Positions 36,178 to 43,782 of a DNA stretch of 64,000 bases are shown one piece after another. A program made the position numbers and the translations under genes. Numbering within the stretch: the stretch's first letter is position 1; every line of letters begins with the position of its first letter. This stretch comes from Candidatus Marithrix sp. Canyon 246. GTDB lineage: Bacteria > Pseudomonadota > Gammaproteobacteria > Beggiatoales > Beggiatoaceae. Under the pieces are notes generated by a model, which did not search any database, was not told the origin of the DNA, and was given only the letters and a program-made list of their open reading frames with translations. The DNA lies in the NCBI RefSeq assembly GCF_001723685.1, contig NZ_MCBX01000017.1, positions 1 through 64,000 on the forward strand, in the 5' to 3' direction.

Positions 36178-37650
36178 TTAATCTGAAATTATGATAGCGG
36201 CACTAGTTCCGGGTTTGCCCTTGGCTGTTAAAGTAATTGTATTATCATTTCCTTCGAACATATATTCTGAAATGTCTAGGAATCTTTCCTCATTGTCCTT
36301 TAAACCAGTGACATTATACTTATTACCGTTGACAATAATCTCAAGCTTCTTAAGACCGGGATTACCATTTTTAATATTTATCTTACTTTCTACTTCAGGA
36401 ATGGCAGTAAAGGTGTTGCTAACTGGCTTACCACTTTCTCTGACTTCTAAAGTTAGAATTGGGTCACAATGAATTGAGTTTCCAACTCTGTCTTTTACTT
36501 CTAACAGAACTTGAGCAGACTGACTCTCATCATCTTTATCAGCGTGAACTATCACAGAATCAGTTGTACCATATTGGAAAAGTGGTATAGTCACTGTAGC
36601 ATTGTCATCTTGCAAGATATTTATTGATGCAAGACCACTATCATTATCCTGAGTGAATATATCAATATATGTTGTTGGTGGACCACTAACATGTTCCAAG
36701 ATGTAACATGTAGGAGGTGTGCTATCCCACACTTTTTCAGCTATATCTGTCTTGACCTTTTGTATAGCATTAGTAAAGCTGCCTTGAATTATATCTGTCC
36801 CAGCCCCGTTATCTCCAAGATATGTGAAGCTTGCTTCACCATTGCTATCAGTAACAGCAGTAGCAGTGTCATCCTTGTTAGGGCCTGAGATTACTTTGAA
36901 AGTTACTGTTACCCCAGCAATAGGAATTTTTAGAAGAATGTCTCTTACTAATGCAGTAACTGTATGACTTGTTCCCAGTGGATTTGCAGCTTTCTTAGGA
37001 GTGACAACAATCTCTTTCCTAATGCATAAAGGAATCAGCTTGTTCAACACAGCTTGAGGACTTGCTTTAAAGTCAATAATTTTAAAAATAGTCCCACCTG
37101 TTGCTTCAGAAAGACTACCGGGGTTAGATCCATACGTTGTTGCTGTATTACCACCAAATGGGGGGTTGACGATCCCCAACCATAAAGCATTCTGTGCCTG
37201 CAACTTAGTAACAGCAGTAGTCAAATTACCACCATCTGAATCTTCATCAGTAATCAAAACATAGCATCCATAAGCAGATCCAGTGCGGAAACTGACATTG
37301 TCATGGGCAAAAATGGTAGCTTCGACACCCGGTTCATAACCTCCACTAGCTACAAGTGTAGCTAAAGCGGTACTTAAGCCTGCTGCATCGGTAAGATTTG
37401 TAGTAAGTCCGGGATTTGGACCAGAACCTCCTCCAAATTCAACGAGTGCATACCGGGAATCCAAAGATAGTTCTAATTGATCTGCTATAAAATTGACATT
37501 TATTCGAACTTGATCGATATCATTCTGCATACTTCCAGATTCGTCAATAATAAAAACTATATCAGCTGGAGGATTTACTACTGCATGGGCTGCTGTGAAA
37601 ATGCCAGCAAACATCACAAAAACAGCCGCAATTACAAATTTTATATTCAT
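36178..37650 (-). CDS. Exported VWA protein with Ig-like and shared C-terminal domain
   Basis: A 490-residue secreted protein. Start ATG 37650 has AGG 7 bases upstream; an upstream in-frame ATG (37683) would lengthen the signal peptide. After the signal (FTAAHA) comes a VWA domain with intact MIDAS DESGS and LITDEDSDGG, then a bacterial Ig-like (Big) domain (ANPLGTSHTVTALV ... DSNGEASFTYLGDNG). The C-terminal about 160 residues (from WDSTPPTCYI to the end) are homologous to the end of the protein at 37966. A role in adhesion or surface layers is plausible but not shown. Confidence 0.82.
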   Translation of the reverse strand: MNIKFVIAAVFVMFAGIFTAAHAVVNPPADIVFIIDESGSMQNDIDQVRINVNFIADQLELSLDSRYALVEFGGGSGPNPGLTTNLTDAAGLSTALATLVASGGYEPGVEATIFAHDNVSFRTGSAYGCYVLITDEDSDGGNLTTAVTKLQAQNALWLGIVNPPFGGNTATTYGSNPGSLSEATGGTIFKIIDFKASPQAVLNKLIPLCIRKEIVVTPKKAANPLGTSHTVTALVRDILLKIPIAGVTVTFKVISGPNKDDTATAVTDSNGEASFTYLGDNGAGTDIIQGSFTNAIQKVKTDIAEKVWDSTPPTCYILEHVSGPPTTYIDIFTQDNDSGLASINILQDDNATVTIPLFQYGTTDSVIVHADKDDESQSAQVLLEVKDRVGNSIHCDPILTLEVRESGKPVSNTFTAIPEVESKINIKNGNPGLKKLEIIVNGNKYNVTGLKDNEERFLDISEYMFEGNDNTITLTAKGKPGTSAAIIISD

Positions 37651-37782
37651 ATTGTTACCTAGTATAATTTTATTAAGTTTCATAACTACTAAAGCATAAG
37701 TTTTAATTTTTCAAAATACTTGAAAACTTGTGTTTTAGTTCCTAGTACACTGTCAATAAACTAAACCTTGTTATAAGTTCCA

Positions 37783-37965: not shown

Positions 37966-40122
37966 TTACATATCTGCAATCAATACAAGTGCGCTACCAT
38001 CAGGCTTACCTAGAGCTGTTAAGCTAATTGTATTGTTATTATATAGATTCATATAAGCTGCAACGTCTTGGAATATTACTTGATTATCTGCTAAATTATC
38101 AAATACAAATATCTGACCATTTACGTTAATCTGAATTTCCTTAAGACCGGGGGCACCGTTTGTAACAGTTATCTTACTTTCAATTTCAGGAATATCAGTA
38201 AATGTCTGGGTAACGGGCTTACCATTTGTTCTGGCTACTACACTGATAACTGGATCGCATACAGTTACATTTCCAACTAAATCAGTAATCTGAAATTCAA
38301 CAACTGAACTTAAGTTTTGATCAACCTTTGTAGCAGTGATTAGTATAGGAACAGTGATACCTACTGTAAAACCAGTGTGTCCAGTTATATTAACATTTTC
38401 CTCTCTGGTAACTAGAATTTCAGAAATACCACTATCAGTATCACTAGTAGTTACTTCTATGTACTTATCACCGTTAGCATTGGTACCTACTGCTGTAATT
38501 GCACAATATGGTCTAGCATCTCCCAAGTAGTGACTGTAATCTGTGTCAGATACTGCTCTTTGGTTAGCTAAATCATCAGTATAGGTTGTAGTGGCTGTAC
38601 CAAGATTATCGTACTGACCAGCTGTAGATATGCCATTGGCTTTACAAGTTTTAGTTTCACCCATATGCAGGATAGAGATGACATTATCATTATTAGCTTC
38701 ACCGCAATCAATATTGGCTGAAGCGATTACACTATCAGTCACCTGAACATTGGTAAGATCAGTATTACCAGTATTTTCTACTCTGTACATCCAGAATACA
38801 GGATCATCCGCTGTTATCATTGGACCTGTAATAGTATCAGCATCTTCACCATTAGTGAACTTCTCAAGATCGATACTTGGATCAGCACCATAGTAGTGGC
38901 TCTTATCAGTATCACTTACTGGAGTGCCGGAATAGTCAGCAGTTACTGAAGCAGTATTAGAGTACTGATAGGCTGTAGCGGTGCCTGTAGCGGTACATAT
39001 CATGGACGCACCAACAGCTAGAGATGTGCTAGGGCAACTTATGGTACCCAGAATATTATCTGTTACCACAATATTTTGTAGAGCTACATTACCGATGTTA
39101 GTGACCTCGTATTTCCACGTAACTGTTTCACCAGTTAAGATAATTGGTCCACTTGGACCATCTGCATCTGCATAATCATTTACACCCGGTCCTGATTTAG
39201 TTAAGTACTCGATATCAATGTTGGATACACCACCGAAGTAGTGGCTGGGATCAGTATCATTAACTGAATCACCATCAGGATCAGTAGCAGTAACAGAACC
39301 TACATTAGCATACTGGTTGGCTGTTGCTGTACCAGTTGCGGTACATATCATAGACTCACCAACAACTAAAGAAGTTTTAGGGCAACTGATGCTACCAACA
39401 ACATCATCCGTCACCGCAATACCAGTGAGATCAGTATAACCATTATTTGTAACAATGTAGCTCCAATTTACCCCATTACCAACTGCGATAACCGGACCTG
39501 TTGGATCATCAGCATCAATATCGTTAGTGTGTGTCTCTATGTCAATATTAGATACTGGATTACACTGTAGTGATAGCTCAAGCGGATCATTTTTTTTACC
39601 TGTTGATGAAGTCCGATCAGAATCAATGTTTATGTGCGCTTCTATGTCGTAGGGATCAGGAATTAGTGGAAATGAAACTTCATAACCAATAAGATCAACA
39701 CCTTCAATTCCATTCGGTGCTACCCATGAAAACTGTGAACCGCTAGGAATAGGATCCCCACCAGCTACAGGATTTTGCCCAAGTTGATAGGCTTTGATCC
39801 ATGACTCATCAGCTTCTTTCTCAGGCCAGTAATTACCTTCCCGCAATACCAATGCGTACATGGTATTGGTGCTGCAATCGTAGCGCAGATATAGATTAGA
39901 TAAGTGATCTTTGGTACAATTACCAGTGCTATGATCTATACGTCCAGCTTCACACATCTTGGAGAAGAGATCAGTAGTAAGATTCCACTCACTAGTATAA
40001 CCATCAACAGTAGCACTAGCATAGGTGGGCTCGTTCGCTGCATTTGCAGTTGACATGAAAGCGGCTGATATGCCCAGCGCAGACATAACTGCTAACGACA
40101 TCATATTGAATTTTTTTTTCAT
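37966..40122 (-). CDS. Exported repeat protein with DUF11/DUF7507-like domains
   Basis: A 718-residue secreted protein. Signal peptide 1-28 (MSTANA). An N-terminal domain of about 150 residues (DGYTSEWNL ... CSTNTMYALVL) resembles beta-sandwich surface domains. Then come three about-105-residue repeats of the DUF11/DUF7507 type: NWSYIVTNNGYTDLTGIAVTD, WKYEVTNIGNVALQNIVVTD and WMYRVENTGNTDLTNVQVTD, each with Cys-Pro or Cys-Lys pairs and a DTDxSHY end. The C-terminal about 150 residues match the VWA protein at 36178. It follows the RiPP-like cluster on the same strand. Confidence 0.82.
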   Translation of the reverse strand: MKKKFNMMSLAVMSALGISAAFMSTANAANEPTYASATVDGYTSEWNLTTDLFSKMCEAGRIDHSTGNCTKDHLSNLYLRYDCSTNTMYALVLREGNYWPEKEADESWIKAYQLGQNPVAGGDPIPSGSQFSWVAPNGIEGVDLIGYEVSFPLIPDPYDIEAHINIDSDRTSSTGKKNDPLELSLQCNPVSNIDIETHTNDIDADDPTGPVIAVGNGVNWSYIVTNNGYTDLTGIAVTDDVVGSISCPKTSLVVGESMICTATGTATANQYANVGSVTATDPDGDSVNDTDPSHYFGGVSNIDIEYLTKSGPGVNDYADADGPSGPIILTGETVTWKYEVTNIGNVALQNIVVTDNILGTISCPSTSLAVGASMICTATGTATAYQYSNTASVTADYSGTPVSDTDKSHYYGADPSIDLEKFTNGEDADTITGPMITADDPVFWMYRVENTGNTDLTNVQVTDSVIASANIDCGEANNDNVISILHMGETKTCKANGISTAGQYDNLGTATTTYTDDLANQRAVSDTDYSHYLGDARPYCAITAVGTNANGDKYIEVTTSDTDSGISEILVTREENVNITGHTGFTVGITVPILITATKVDQNLSSVVEFQITDLVGNVTVCDPVISVVARTNGKPVTQTFTDIPEIESKITVTNGAPGLKEIQINVNGQIFVFDNLADNQVIFQDVAAYMNLYNNNTISLTALGKPDGSALVLIADM

Positions 40123-40184: not shown

Positions 40185-40613
40185 TTATAATGATTTTATA
40201 TTACGTATTAATCTATAAATATGAGTAAAAATAAAGGGAGTGCTAGCGATAATATAACCTATTACATACCAAACTTTTGTATCTAGCCTTCTGTTTTTCA
40301 CAGCTATAACTTTGCCAATGACGCTTTTAATATCAACTACTTCATCAAGATAACAATTAAAATCTCCTTTAGTAATTAGAGAATCATTTTGTATTTTTAT
40401 CACACGATGGACTATAATTTTTCGCTCTCTCCTGTATGCAATAATAGAACCTACTCTTATATCATTGCTATTATGTTTGAGCGTCAGCCAGTCACCATTT
40501 TTTATAACAGGAGTCATACTATGACCGGAAAGTTTCAGTTGACTTTCTTTATCATTTTCCTGCCAAAGATCAAAGATAGTATTGGCTATAGAGTTTTTAA
40601 TATTCACAATCAA
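40185..40613 (-). CDS. S26 signal-peptidase-like protein of the RiPP-like cluster
   Basis: A 142-residue protein of the S24/S26 type with the nucleophile Ser in LSGHSMTPVIKNGDWL, the general-base Lys probably in RRERKIIVHRVI, and ITKGDFNCYLDEVV. A C-terminal membrane span (about 118-134) would anchor it. Its start overlaps the HprK-like stop by 4 bases. In such clusters it may cut the leader or only act on surface proteins. Confidence 0.8.
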   Translation of the reverse strand: MIVNIKNSIANTIFDLWQENDKESQLKLSGHSMTPVIKNGDWLTLKHNSNDIRVGSIIAYRRERKIIVHRVIKIQNDSLITKGDFNCYLDEVVDIKSVIGKVIAVKNRRLDTKVWYVIGYIIASTPFIFTHIYRLIRNIKSL

Positions 40614-41590
40614 TCCAGCAACTCTGTCAATACCTTTACATTTTCCTCGCTATTTCCAAGATTAAATTTATAACACTCTGCCTTTTGGACTACATTTGAC
40701 ATAGCCATAAAGTGCTTAAAGGAATTTTCTTCACCGGTACGTGAATATTTTAAAGATTCAAATAGAACATCAGATTTAGAGATTGGTGTTAGTTTAGGAT
40801 ATTTTGAGAATCCATTGAGAAAAATCAAATAACGAATCTGACATTTACCTCCTAAAGAATTGGGATAAATATCTTCTATATCCACACTCCATTTGTTCTC
40901 ACCATTTAAAGATTTTGTACTATCTGTTTCATTTAAAGCTTTCAATGCTGGAAATTTCGCCAGTGTATCTTGCCTAAATCCTAAAGATCGGGGAAATGGT
41001 GATAGTTCACAACTAGATAAATCAATAGAAGCAACCTCATCAGAGAGGAATTTAAAGCCACTTTCAACCAATTTTAAAGTTAGCGTACTTTTCCCCATGT
41101 TCGATGCACCACAAATCACTATTCCCTGATCTTTCCAAGAAACTACACCAGCGTGAAGAAGATAATGATTTCGAATCTGAAACAGAATGGAATTGAATAT
41201 TATGTGTTCTGCATAGGAATTCCACAGCTCAGTATCTAAAATTACACAAGTTTTATCTTTCAAAATCATCGTTGACTTGTCAGATAAAAAACTATCAGTA
41301 ACAGTGTAATCAGAATTATGTTTCTCTAACTTAAACCGACGTTGATTGCTACCTGTTAAGAAAATATCCTGCAAATTGCTTATTGTTTCACTTTCTACAA
41401 TTACTAGAGGTTGACTACCAGAAATAACATAATAAGTATCGCAATTTTCCTTTGATACATCAGTTTTAAAGTGCCTATTACTATTATAGTAATGTTCACG
41501 TGCTAAAGAAGAGTCAAATTTAACTGTAAAATTAATACCAAACAAGCAATAATTATCTGAATATATCGCATTGTCTTTTAATTTTTTCAT
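40610..41590 (-). CDS. HprK-like kinase of the RiPP-like cluster
   Basis: A 326-residue protein with a C-terminal HPr-kinase-like P-loop (ICGASNMGKSTLTLKLVESGF) and FLSDEVASIDL, plus an N-terminal domain typical of HprK-related proteins found beside PqqD-like genes. Related enzymes (for example in paeninodin-type lasso clusters) phosphorylate a Ser near the precursor C-terminus. The start overlaps the PqqD-like stop by 4 bases, implying coupled translation. Confidence 0.85.
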   Translation of the reverse strand: MKKLKDNAIYSDNYCLFGINFTVKFDSSLAREHYYNSNRHFKTDVSKENCDTYYVISGSQPLVIVESETISNLQDIFLTGSNQRRFKLEKHNSDYTVTDSFLSDKSTMILKDKTCVILDTELWNSYAEHIIFNSILFQIRNHYLLHAGVVSWKDQGIVICGASNMGKSTLTLKLVESGFKFLSDEVASIDLSSCELSPFPRSLGFRQDTLAKFPALKALNETDSTKSLNGENKWSVDIEDIYPNSLGGKCQIRYLIFLNGFSKYPKLTPISKSDVLFESLKYSRTGEENSFKHFMAMSNVVQKAECYKFNLGNSEENVKVLTELLD

Positions 41591-41844
41591 TGTTCAACCA
41601 ATCCTAGTTGACTGAACTGATTGATAGTTTCTCTGATATCATCTTTTACATCTTGAACATTGGAAACATTAAATTTACCCATTATTTTGTTCTCAATCAT
41701 TTCAAGACTATGTTTACCATCGCAATATTCCCAGACCATAGAAGATGTTTTATTGAGAACGTGTATCGCTTTAGTTTGGGGGTTATAAAGCACAGCTTCA
41801 TCACCCATATCCCTGATGACTATTTTGTCTTTTTTTAGAAACAT
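41587..41844 (-). CDS. PqqD-like peptide-binding protein
   Basis: An 85-residue winged-helix-like PqqD/RRE protein that would bind a precursor leader: DEAVLYNPQTKAIHVLNKTSSMVWEYCDG and a helical end. ATG 41844 is preferred because GGAG lies 6 bases upstream; ATG 41868 lies inside a hairpin. It is the first enzyme-side gene after the precursor-like peptide. Confidence 0.85.
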   Translation of the reverse strand: MFLKKDKIVIRDMGDEAVLYNPQTKAIHVLNKTSSMVWEYCDGKHSLEMIENKIMGKFNVSNVQDVKDDIRETINQFSQLGLVEQ

Positions 41845-41861
41845 TTTTTCTCCATTATGAT

Positions 41862-41895
41862 TTACCATTCGCTTAATAACTGTTGCGAATGGTAA
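41862..41895 (-). promoter_or_regulatory. Hairpin between precursor-like gene and PqqD-like gene
   Basis: TTACCATTCGC (41862-41872) and GCGAATGGTAA (41885-41895) form a perfect 11-bp stem with a 12-nt loop. There is no T-tract. It follows the precursor stop by about 13 bases. It may protect the precursor message or reduce read-through, giving more peptide than enzymes. Confidence 0.65.
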
Positions 41896-41907
41896 GTAAA
41901 TACTAGC

Positions 41908-42036
41908 TTAGAAGGAAAAACCAACCACTTTATACTGACTCATAATATCTTCTTCAGTATAAGTAGTTATTTCAGGTTTTTCATAGCTTGCTTTAACTTC
42001 TTTTATTTGATCCTGATTGTTTTCTTGTATTTTCAT
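41908..42036 (-). CDS. Precursor-like peptide of a RiPP-type cluster (42 residues)
   Basis: A short frame from ATG 42036 to TAA 41908 with GGTGA 5 bases before the ATG. The N-terminal part is charged (KIQENNQDQIKEV), followed by SYEKPEITTYTEEDI, which has the look of RiPP leaders recognised by PqqD/RRE proteins, and a short C-terminus MSQYKVVGFSF with a penultimate Ser. It lies directly upstream of pqqD-hprK-S26 and divergent from the nucleotidyltransferase. Role as precursor is inference from position and composition; no product is known to me. Confidence 0.7.
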   Translation of the reverse strand: MKIQENNQDQIKEVKASYEKPEITTYTEEDIMSQYKVVGFSF

Positions 42037-42174
42037 CTTTATCACCTTAGATTGTTAATGTAAAATATCTGAAAATGCAAATATTATACCGAAAAATAAG
42101 GCGCACTTGCTAAAAAATTGCTTAATAAATAATGGCATATGACTTGCTTAGTTTTTTGATAAAATTTCATAAAT

Positions 42175-43338
42175 ATGGCTGATCAAATAATGCTAGCTAA
42201 AAAATTAACAGGTTTATTACTCAATAACGCACAAGAATTCAAAAACTTATCATATATGGAATGGGATGTATTATTACGTTCAGCTATAAAACATGGTATT
42301 GCTGCTTTACTTTATAAGCGCGTTAAGAATTTAGATAATATTCCTAAAGATATTTTAGCGGCTTTAAGTAAGGCTTATTATACAAATCTTTTAAGAAATT
42401 TTAGTTATTATCAAGAATTATCTGAAATAATAAAGCAGTTACACGAGAATGAAATTGAAGTTATAGTCTTAAAAGGAGCATATTTAGCAAAAACAGTTTA
42501 TGAATCTGATGCACTTAGATTCATTGGTGATATGGATTTAATGGTAAAATCCGCCGATTTATCTAAAACTCAGAATCTGCTGTTACAATTAGGATATAAA
42601 CAAAATTTAACTGATTTTAAAAAACAAGGTGCGTTTAATATTGATCTTCATTGGAATTTTCATTTCACACCAGATACTCCATTTAAAATCAATCCAGAAA
42701 TGCTATGGCAAGCAGCACAGCCTTGCACAATTGGCAATATTAAAGCTCAATGTTTATCCCCAGAAGATTTATTATTTCATGCCTGTTCTCATGCAGCCTA
42801 TGCAAATAACTTTGGTAGTATGCGATTTTTGTATGATATTCAAAAAACGATTGCTTATTATGAAATTGATTGGAATCTATTATTTAAACGCGCTTCTGAA
42901 TGGAAAGCTGAAAAGGTAGTTTACTTAGCACTATATATAGCAAAAGATTGTCTAGCAGCAGAGGTGCCAGACAAAGTCTTGAATGAATTTAAACCCAAAG
43001 ATTTTAATTTAGAATTAGTAACAATCACCAAAGAAATTATCAGTTTCAATATCAATTATCAACTATCTTCAATCAATCTAGCCACACTATGGATGATTAA
43101 TAAACCACTACGAGAAAAATTATCCATAATAATAAATAGAACATTGCTCTCACCGAAAAGCCTAGCGGCTCTCTATAACTTACCCACCAACTCATGGCGA
43201 GTTTATTTTTATTATCCAATACGTATGAAATACCTATTTGTACGATATATTGGTATTATTCATGGTGATAAAAAAATGCAAGAATGTAATTTAAAAAATA
43301 ATAAAATTACTCTTATTTTGAATTGGATGAGAAATTGA
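42175..43338 (+). CDS. Nucleotidyltransferase-family protein (NTP_transf_5)
   Basis: A 387-residue protein of the NTP_transf_5 group. Catalytic region: IEVIVLKGAYLAKTVYES, RFIGDMDLMVKSADL (metal-binding DxD), then INIDLHWNFHF-like strands and helical C-terminal part. Members sit next to HprK-like kinases in RiPP clusters, where a homologue (in pseudomycoidin biosynthesis) modifies the peptide. It is divergent from the precursor-like gene, with about 138 bases between starts. Confidence 0.82.
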   Translation: MADQIMLAKKLTGLLLNNAQEFKNLSYMEWDVLLRSAIKHGIAALLYKRVKNLDNIPKDILAALSKAYYTNLLRNFSYYQELSEIIKQLHENEIEVIVLKGAYLAKTVYESDALRFIGDMDLMVKSADLSKTQNLLLQLGYKQNLTDFKKQGAFNIDLHWNFHFTPDTPFKINPEMLWQAAQPCTIGNIKAQCLSPEDLLFHACSHAAYANNFGSMRFLYDIQKTIAYYEIDWNLLFKRASEWKAEKVVYLALYIAKDCLAAEVPDKVLNEFKPKDFNLELVTITKEIISFNINYQLSSINLATLWMINKPLREKLSIIINRTLLSPKSLAALYNLPTNSWRVYFYYPIRMKYLFVRYIGIIHGDKKMQECNLKNNKITLILNWMRN

Positions 43339-43344
43339 ATGAAC

Positions 43345-43782
43345 TTAATAAAAATACAAGATAGGCACAGCTATGCAGTTTTTTTCAAAATACAATAAAT
43401 TTTCACCCATATAAAAAACTATTCCAAATATATCTTTTTTTGAGTGTTTTTTATTGTTGGTTCTGTAATGAAAAATTTGGGTTTCATCTGTGCAAAATGA
43501 CAAATGTTTCAACTCTAATTCCAATTTGTTTTGCAATCTCTGATTTATTTAGCAAAGTTGTACTTCTTGAAGCAATCACATTTACAAATATAAAAAAGCT
43601 ATCTATATCTCTAAATTCTCCTAGGCGTTTCTAAATTTTCTATAAATCTATTGGGATCATCTTTAGCACTGATTCTAGTAGAAACATCATCAAGTACAAT
43701 ATAATTTTTACTTAAACTCATCGCAAGAGTTGACTTACCAACTTGCCTTGCACCTTTTAAAAGTACGATAGGATTTTTTTTA
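43345..43782 (-). pseudogene. Broken DUF4143-type ATPase
   Basis: The minus strand has a P-loop segment (NPIVLLKGARQVGKSTLAM, then NYIVLDDVSTRISAKDDPN) that runs into a stop near 43618. A fragment in another frame resembles SRSTTLLNKSEIAKQIGI, the helix-turn-helix part of these proteins, and 43345-43536 still encodes the nuclease-like end (TQIFHYRTNNKK). The middle of the gene is missing. DUF4143 ATPases are a common accessory family. Confidence 0.7.

Follow-up and report, generated by a model that had tools for sequence, protein, structure and literature searches.

A stretch of 64,000 nucleotides (hereafter the window), positions 1 to 64,000 of contig NZ_MCBX01000017.1 from Candidatus Marithrix sp. 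Canyon 246 (genome G000 in our set, 3.2 Mb), carries a gene for a 42-residue peptide beside genes for a PqqD-like recognition protein, an HprK-like kinase and an S26 peptidase, with a divergent NTP_transf_5 nucleotidyltransferase gene. The 42-residue frame is a real gene. Since a conserved peptide gene adjoins genes for a recognition protein, a kinase and a peptidase, the most likely product is a linear phosphorylated peptide. In our judgement the locus is probably a cluster for a ribosomally synthesized and post-translationally modified peptide (RiPP) of the linear polyphosphorylated peptide (LPP) type, making a linear phosphopeptide close to QYKVVGFSF. In the LPP cluster of Paenibacillus alginolyticus, LppK is described as phosphorylating core Ser3, with as many as four phosphates seen; the S26-type enzyme LppS is a proven leader peptidase there, helped by LppB (PMC13381572). 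All frames lie where the initial annotation had placed them, and the 4-base overlaps it reported were found at both the PqqD/HprK and the HprK/S26 junctions. The cluster comprises the following features, with L- and G-numbers denoting loci and genomes throughout:

41908..42036, minus strand: precursor peptide gene, 42 residues, MKIQENNQDQIKEVKASYEKPEITTYTEEDIMSQYKVVGFSF, with ATG at 42036 and stop at 41908
42043..42048, minus strand: Shine-Dalgarno-like AAGGTG of the peptide gene (AGGTGA in 4/4 copies of the window clade)
41968..41985, minus strand: leader motif YEKPEI (residues 18-23) with the YxxPx[I/L/V] signature to which discrete recognition proteins bind (PMC13381572)
41935..41940, minus strand: predicted leader cleavage between residues 33 and 34 (IMS/QYKVVGFSF), placed by its spacing as in LppA
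41914..41916, minus strand: codon of Ser41 in an invariant G-x-S (15/15 aligned copies), the predicted phosphorylation site
41862..41895, minus strand: hairpin between peptide and PqqD genes, 11-bp stem and 12-nt loop, folding z -4.1
41587..41844, minus strand: PqqD-like protein, a discrete RiPP recognition element (RRE) by PF05402 and solved relatives, in a frame open from 41868
40610..41590, minus strand: HprK-like kinase, with weak domain matches and conserved catalytic residues
40185..40613, minus strand: archaeal-type signal peptidase I (SpI, S26; TIGR02228, Ser32-His69-Asp84), proposed leader peptidase
42175..43338, plus strand: divergent NTP_transf_5 nucleotidyltransferase (PF14907; KG...R...DxD kept), proposed to tailor the phosphate

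An alternative 45-residue form of the peptide is possible from a GTG 9 bases upstream of the ATG. The initial annotation had taken the short frame for a precursor-like peptide and named the absence of a conserved short frame from related clusters as a ground for refuting this; such frames are present in related genomes beside PqqD, HprK and S26. Copies occur in three related genomes at 76% to about 63% identity. A search of 57 genomes found one copy in the same genus with 76% identity and one in a different genus with 69%, both adjoined by PqqD, HprK and S26 genes, and a further copy at 42% identity that adjoined another HprK and PqqD; 7 of the 12 rows (E 0.04-0.93), in frames of 187-682 residues, were dropped as chance. 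A profile search extended the family to 17 places at E 3e-6 or better, distributed over 9 of the 42 genomes of the order, and three matches (E 0.04-0.09; frames of 279-523 residues) were dropped. Beyond the window, no credible member was found in 369 genomes of the class or 398 of the phylum, draws that partly overlap each other and the order; one class match (E 0.04, 155-residue frame) and one phylum match (E 0.005, 1024-residue frame) were rejected. The peptide had no match in plasmids, where the HprK (2) and NTP_transf_5 (5) matches were distant. In viral contigs, the peptide and HprK patterns gave 31 and 150 matches, respectively, none of which was confirmed. Pfam and NCBIfam have no model for the peptide (one chance match, E 0.05), and five of its relatives, scanned against NCBIfam, were likewise without one.

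Ratios of nonsynonymous to synonymous substitutions (dN/dS, Nei-Gojobori) were 0.29, 0.21, 0.29, 0.40 and 0.70 for five pairs in the clade of the window; four of six pairs in its sister clade gave 0.00-0.55, indicating constraint, and the remaining two are considered below. Between the L011 and L012 genes there are 6 silent changes and none of any other kind, for which the probability by chance is about 8e-5. L098 and L099 were rejected as intact members, since a stop immediately before a YVPP stretch closes their frame; L100 has a stop inside the peptide. These three are counted among the places, not among the intact genes. The L093 contig of genome G406, with a sister-type peptide and an HprK gene, is letter-identical to LUTY01003001.1 of the gammaproteobacterium Candidatus Thiomargarita nelsonii.

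Alignment of 15 copies, leaving out L012 (its protein is identical to that of L011) and the broken L100, revealed that the Y and P of YxxP and a V-x-G-x-S near the C-terminus are kept in 15/15. Two clades are visible: that of the window, with L009, L010 and L092, ends in ...I(M/L)(S/N)QYxVxGFSF, and the sister clade in ...(L/M)LKxxxVxGCSxx. The same-genus genome has an equivalent hairpin with compensating base changes (folding z -3.1). The first arm is retained after the peptide gene in L010 and L092. The second arm is retained ahead of PqqD in L010, where the gene of a secreted-looking protein separates the two arms; in L092 the peptide and PqqD genes are separated by other frames.

The recognition protein matches PF05402 (E 4.5e-11), and its start is probably the ATG at 41844, after GGAGAAAAA, which also occurs in L009 and L010. 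The best solved relatives of its profile are LppB (9x8z, E 1.6e-5) and then the lasso protein TbiB1 (2.8e-5). LppB is reported to hold the YxxP tyrosine via D70 and the proline kink via N33 (PMC13381572). Read by eye, the alignment has the equivalent Asn in 9/9 rows and the Asp in 8/9, the row without Asp being L056, which has no peptide beside it. Both residues are kept in the window protein; they are also present in lasso and PQQ RREs, hence not diagnostic. This peptide family was not represented at the PqqD loci L063 and L065-L072. Near PqqD genes at L067 (1822-2019) and L070 (81-281 and 265-486) there are other short frames, whose leaders contain YKKP or YISP and whose tails are rich in Ala and Val; they may belong to another RiPP family.

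The kinase matches Hpr_kinase_C (PF07475, E 2.6e-6, 27.5 bits, under the cut-off of 33.3) and HprK_rel_A (TIGR04352, E 1.4e-18, 67 bits, under the cut-off of 200). Paeninodin-type HprK-like kinases are described as acting on a C-terminal Ser with His-Lys-Asp-Asp (PMC9266682). In the five aligned rows His146, the P-loop Lys167, Asp184 and Glu185 are invariant, so that the catalytic His, Lys and Asp are kept and the fourth position is Glu (5/5). A scan of genome contigs with HprK gave 3 loci. At L094 (5819-7816), next to a peptide gene, an HprK gene is split into parts with a group II intron reverse transcriptase between them.

The NTP_transf_5 protein matches PF14907 (E 2.6e-55), and its structure model matches the nucleotidyltransferases LnuA, ANT(2'')-Ia, MenT1 and FKRP, which does not fix the donor. 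The closest relative found (75-79% identical) is in the same-genus genome, where it is not beside the intact peptide but at a distance of about 2 kb from a sister-type one that is broken. Short frames at 43484-43721 (minus strand) resemble ATPase gene remnants by eye.

Neighbours were counted within the stretches fetched around each of the 17 places, several on short contigs. The window clade has PqqD and HprK in 4/4, S26 in 3/4, NTP_transf_5 in 2/4 and C25 peptidases in 0/4. Among the 13 sister-clade places, HprK (whole or broken) was found at 5, PqqD at 2, radical SAM at 2, NTP_transf_5 at 4, S26 at 1 (12/13 without it) and C25 at 8. An ABC transporter ATPase was present at 4/13, three with a permease (a weaker match at L097 was not counted), and proteins with an Fn3-like LDNAGFHIWR region at 6/13. 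A decaying sister cluster was seen at L059 (G017:C458), where HprK, NTP_transf_5 and C25 genes are interrupted or partial and the peptide frame is open.

At the level of genomes, peptide and kinase go together: of the 42 genomes of the order, 9 have the peptide, 9 this HprK and 8 both (hypergeometric P about 7e-7, a value that ignores relatedness and rests on an HprK profile built from five copies, all peptide-linked). The HprK is present in every genome with an intact peptide (7/7); the peptides of G035 and G405 are all broken. G010 and G028 have HprK and PqqD as a pair at a great distance from the peptide gene, so that the association goes beyond adjacency and the parts can act in trans. That the short frame encodes a regulatory or toxin-like peptide merely lying beside these enzymes is highly improbable in view of this co-occurrence, the leader motif and the invariant Ser.

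The S26 protein scored 61.3 bits with TIGR02228, over the cut-off of 51.85, and its S32, H69 and D84, the same Ser, His and Asp as in LppS, are invariant in 7 rows. No transmembrane-like segment precedes the catalytic serine (best 19-residue mean 0.27), and the catalytic part is thus probably cytoplasmic. Its profile matched 4 others in the 398 phylum genomes, and neither PqqD nor HprK lay within about 1.5 kb of any of them. Two neighbouring genes bear on its role:

37966..40122, minus strand: secreted-looking DUF11-type protein, possible partner, with a C-terminal domain seen only beside this cluster type
36178..37683, minus strand: secreted-looking VWA protein, possible partner, with the same C-terminal domain

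Among 40 genomes (25 of the family) this domain was found at 4 places, all beside window-clade clusters. The S26 enzyme could accordingly be no leader peptidase but a signal peptidase devoted to the secreted beta-sandwich proteins encoded next to it, the RiPP part being real. SipW and TasA form such a pair in a matrix system. The protein resembles SipW weakly (NF046067, E 1.6e-5, below the cut-off), secreted-looking proteins with the common domain adjoin the cluster in 3/3 genomes having that domain, and at L092 a secreted-looking frame follows HprK. Set against this are the lack of a hydrophobic segment before the serine, the 4-base HprK/S26 overlap and the four-gene HprK-S26-PqqD-NTP_transf_5 cassettes at L057 (5585-8502, G017) and L122 (4927-7799, G031), where the set is again together. 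None of the 4 places of the secreted domain is at L057, and the L122 genome is outside the 40. With the precedent of LppS as a leader peptidase, we regard the signal-peptidase role as unlikely. No recognisable precursor was seen among the short frames listed near the two cassettes.

At the sister clusters L011 and L012, a radical SAM/SPASM maturase gene stands right before the peptide, and the best NCBIfam match of the window PqqD is ScmD, below the cut-off. Both would suit a scaffold or cofactor-type RiPP (PqqA- or SCM-like), the peptide being chiefly a radical SAM substrate and the kinase an accessory. Within the stretches read, radical SAM genes occur at only 2/17 peptide places and at none in the window clade, which makes such a role improbable.

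A degenerate lasso cluster, whose phosphorylated lasso peptide would be cyclised by enzymes elsewhere in the genome, would likewise have a YxxP leader, PqqD, HprK and NTP_transf_5, all common to paeninodin-type lasso clusters. A relative does have a lasso-type cluster with PqqD and HprK (L058, 4025-7256), with an asparagine-synthetase-like cyclase recognised by eye. The initial annotation had stated that there is no lasso cyclase here, and this holds: L058 cyclase and B2 peptidase queries had no match in the window or in the 16 other peptide stretches, while the same queries found the Paenibacillus lasso locus L138 (E 3e-66 and 8e-23). Lasso rings close on an Asp or Glu acceptor, and the predicted core has neither. 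We thus hold a lasso product to be extremely improbable. Two lasso-like precursors with YHTPKL leaders were seen near an NTP_transf_5 gene at L062 (6724-7262).

For the LPP-type reading we propose, from sequence and precedent, the following course. The 42-residue precursor would be made in excess of the enzymes, aided by the hairpin after its gene. The PqqD-like protein would bind the leader through YEKPEI, as the conserved motif and conserved binding residues suggest. The HprK-like kinase would then phosphorylate Ser41 in VVGFSF, a site indicated by its invariance and by precedent, and NTP_transf_5 might conceivably add a nucleotide or sugar to this phosphate. Finally, the PqqD-like protein would recruit S26 in the cytoplasm to remove the leader at about 33/34: LppS cuts after position -1 when the YxxP tyrosine is -16, and the same spacing puts the cut in the window after residue 33. 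The LPP and paeninodin-type precedents together lead to this proposal of a Ser41 phosphate, a removed leader, a linear product and possibly a cap. The initial annotation's suggestion of a linear phosphorylated peptide made without a lasso cyclase gains support from the published LPP system, where the same enzymes are described as giving such an intermediate (PMC13381572).

Several observations weigh against this reading. The AlphaFold model of HprK is poor (mean predicted local distance difference test score 50), too poor for a structure search, and both PqqD and HprK score under NCBIfam cut-offs. As LppB is only just ahead of TbiB1, PqqD does not tell LPP from lasso. Two sister-clade pairs (dN/dS 0.79 and 0.97) are without sign of protein-sequence constraint, G035 has a broken peptide without the HprK, and G029 the HprK without a peptide. 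At L092, the frame right after HprK is the secreted-looking one, and no S26 is present before the contig end. Past YxxPxI, the leader departs from the LPP consensus YxxPxVLxHQxIxFETxxS; the Ser stands at position 8 in the predicted core, compared with 3 in LPP; and the 64-kb window gave no ABC transporter ATPase match. As for tailoring, NTP_transf_5 is divergent in the window, and LppN is reported to have shown no activity (PMC13381572).

Immediately ahead of the predicted cut, the window clade has Ser or Asn (4/4) and the sister clade Lys in 12/12 readable copies (11 aligned rows and L012), the broken L100 having Gln. Gingipains, which are C25 enzymes, cut after Lys or Arg. This raises the idea that S26 and C25 enzymes can stand in for each other in removing the leaders of one precursor family, and that the phosphopeptide, once mature, acts at the cell surface, either coupled to the dedicated secreted proteins whose genes adjoin its own or by way of them. 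In a tree of the family's C25 proteins (FastTree, midpoint-rooted, no support values; the broken L059 copy left out) two clades were seen, with 8/16 members in peptide loci vs. 0/17, two of the eight being from the single L012 locus. One C25 protein scanned against NCBIfam was PorU-like, below the model cut-off. PorU cuts its cargo and attaches anionic lipopolysaccharide (A-LPS), whose polysaccharide bears phosphorylated mannan (PMC8545088), and such a coupling of phosphorylated polysaccharide to cargo would be the parallel. Against the swap, 5/13 sister places are without C25 in the stretch read, and the Lys vs. Ser/Asn split follows the two clades, so that statistically it is little more than one event. 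We regard the swap as a lead and not a result, and the wider idea, with its role at the cell surface, as quite unlikely; a possible peptidase swap inside one precursor family would be a testable case of leader-cleavage evolution.

We finally compared the cluster with known systems. The HPr-rel-A and SynChlorMet cassettes (TIGR04352/04353, TIGR04248/04249) also have PqqD and HprK-like pairs, but all matches of the window families are under the curated cut-offs; no paper on them was among the matches listed in our literature search. Phospeptin is likewise a linear, poly-phosphorylated RiPP (PMC9259500). With paeninodin- and pseudomycoidin-type lasso clusters the window has in common a discrete RRE, an HprK-like kinase, NTP_transf_5 and a Ser at or near the C-terminus; it differs in having no B2 peptidase or cyclase and YxxP instead of WxxP (PMC9266682), the control locus L138 showing WQAPVV and a terminal Ser. 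In paeninodin-type clusters, PsmN is described as putting hexoses on the Ser phosphate, or as doing so through a host enzyme (PMC9266682).

The closest likeness is to LPP clusters as characterised in PMC13381572. Present in both are a SipW-like archaeal-type SpI peptidase with Ser-His-Asp, a discrete RRE with the YxxP-binding Asn and Asp, an HprK-like kinase (weak but consistent matches), a YxxP leader and no cyclase, as well as an NTP transferase, here on the divergent strand and in only 2/4 clade clusters. The differences lie in the precursor (YxxPxITxYxEE...VxGFSF, with a short predicted core and the Ser near its end), whose leader has only YxxP and the branched residue two on in common with the LPP consensus; in the MsbA-like ABC exporter, not found in the window; and in secreted proteins adjoining the cluster instead of capsule genes. 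With the enzyme features present, and the leader consensus and exporter not, the cluster is best described as an LPP-like variant with another precursor family. Popov et al. (2026; PMC13381572) described LPPs as confined to Bacillota, with neither the role nor the final product established, and we found no description of this gammaproteobacterial cluster type in the one open-access library searched. It would add a second precursor family, in Thiomargarita relatives. The smaller predicted core (9 residues) should make the final product easier to reach, and the link to secreted proteins in place of capsule genes opens another way into function.

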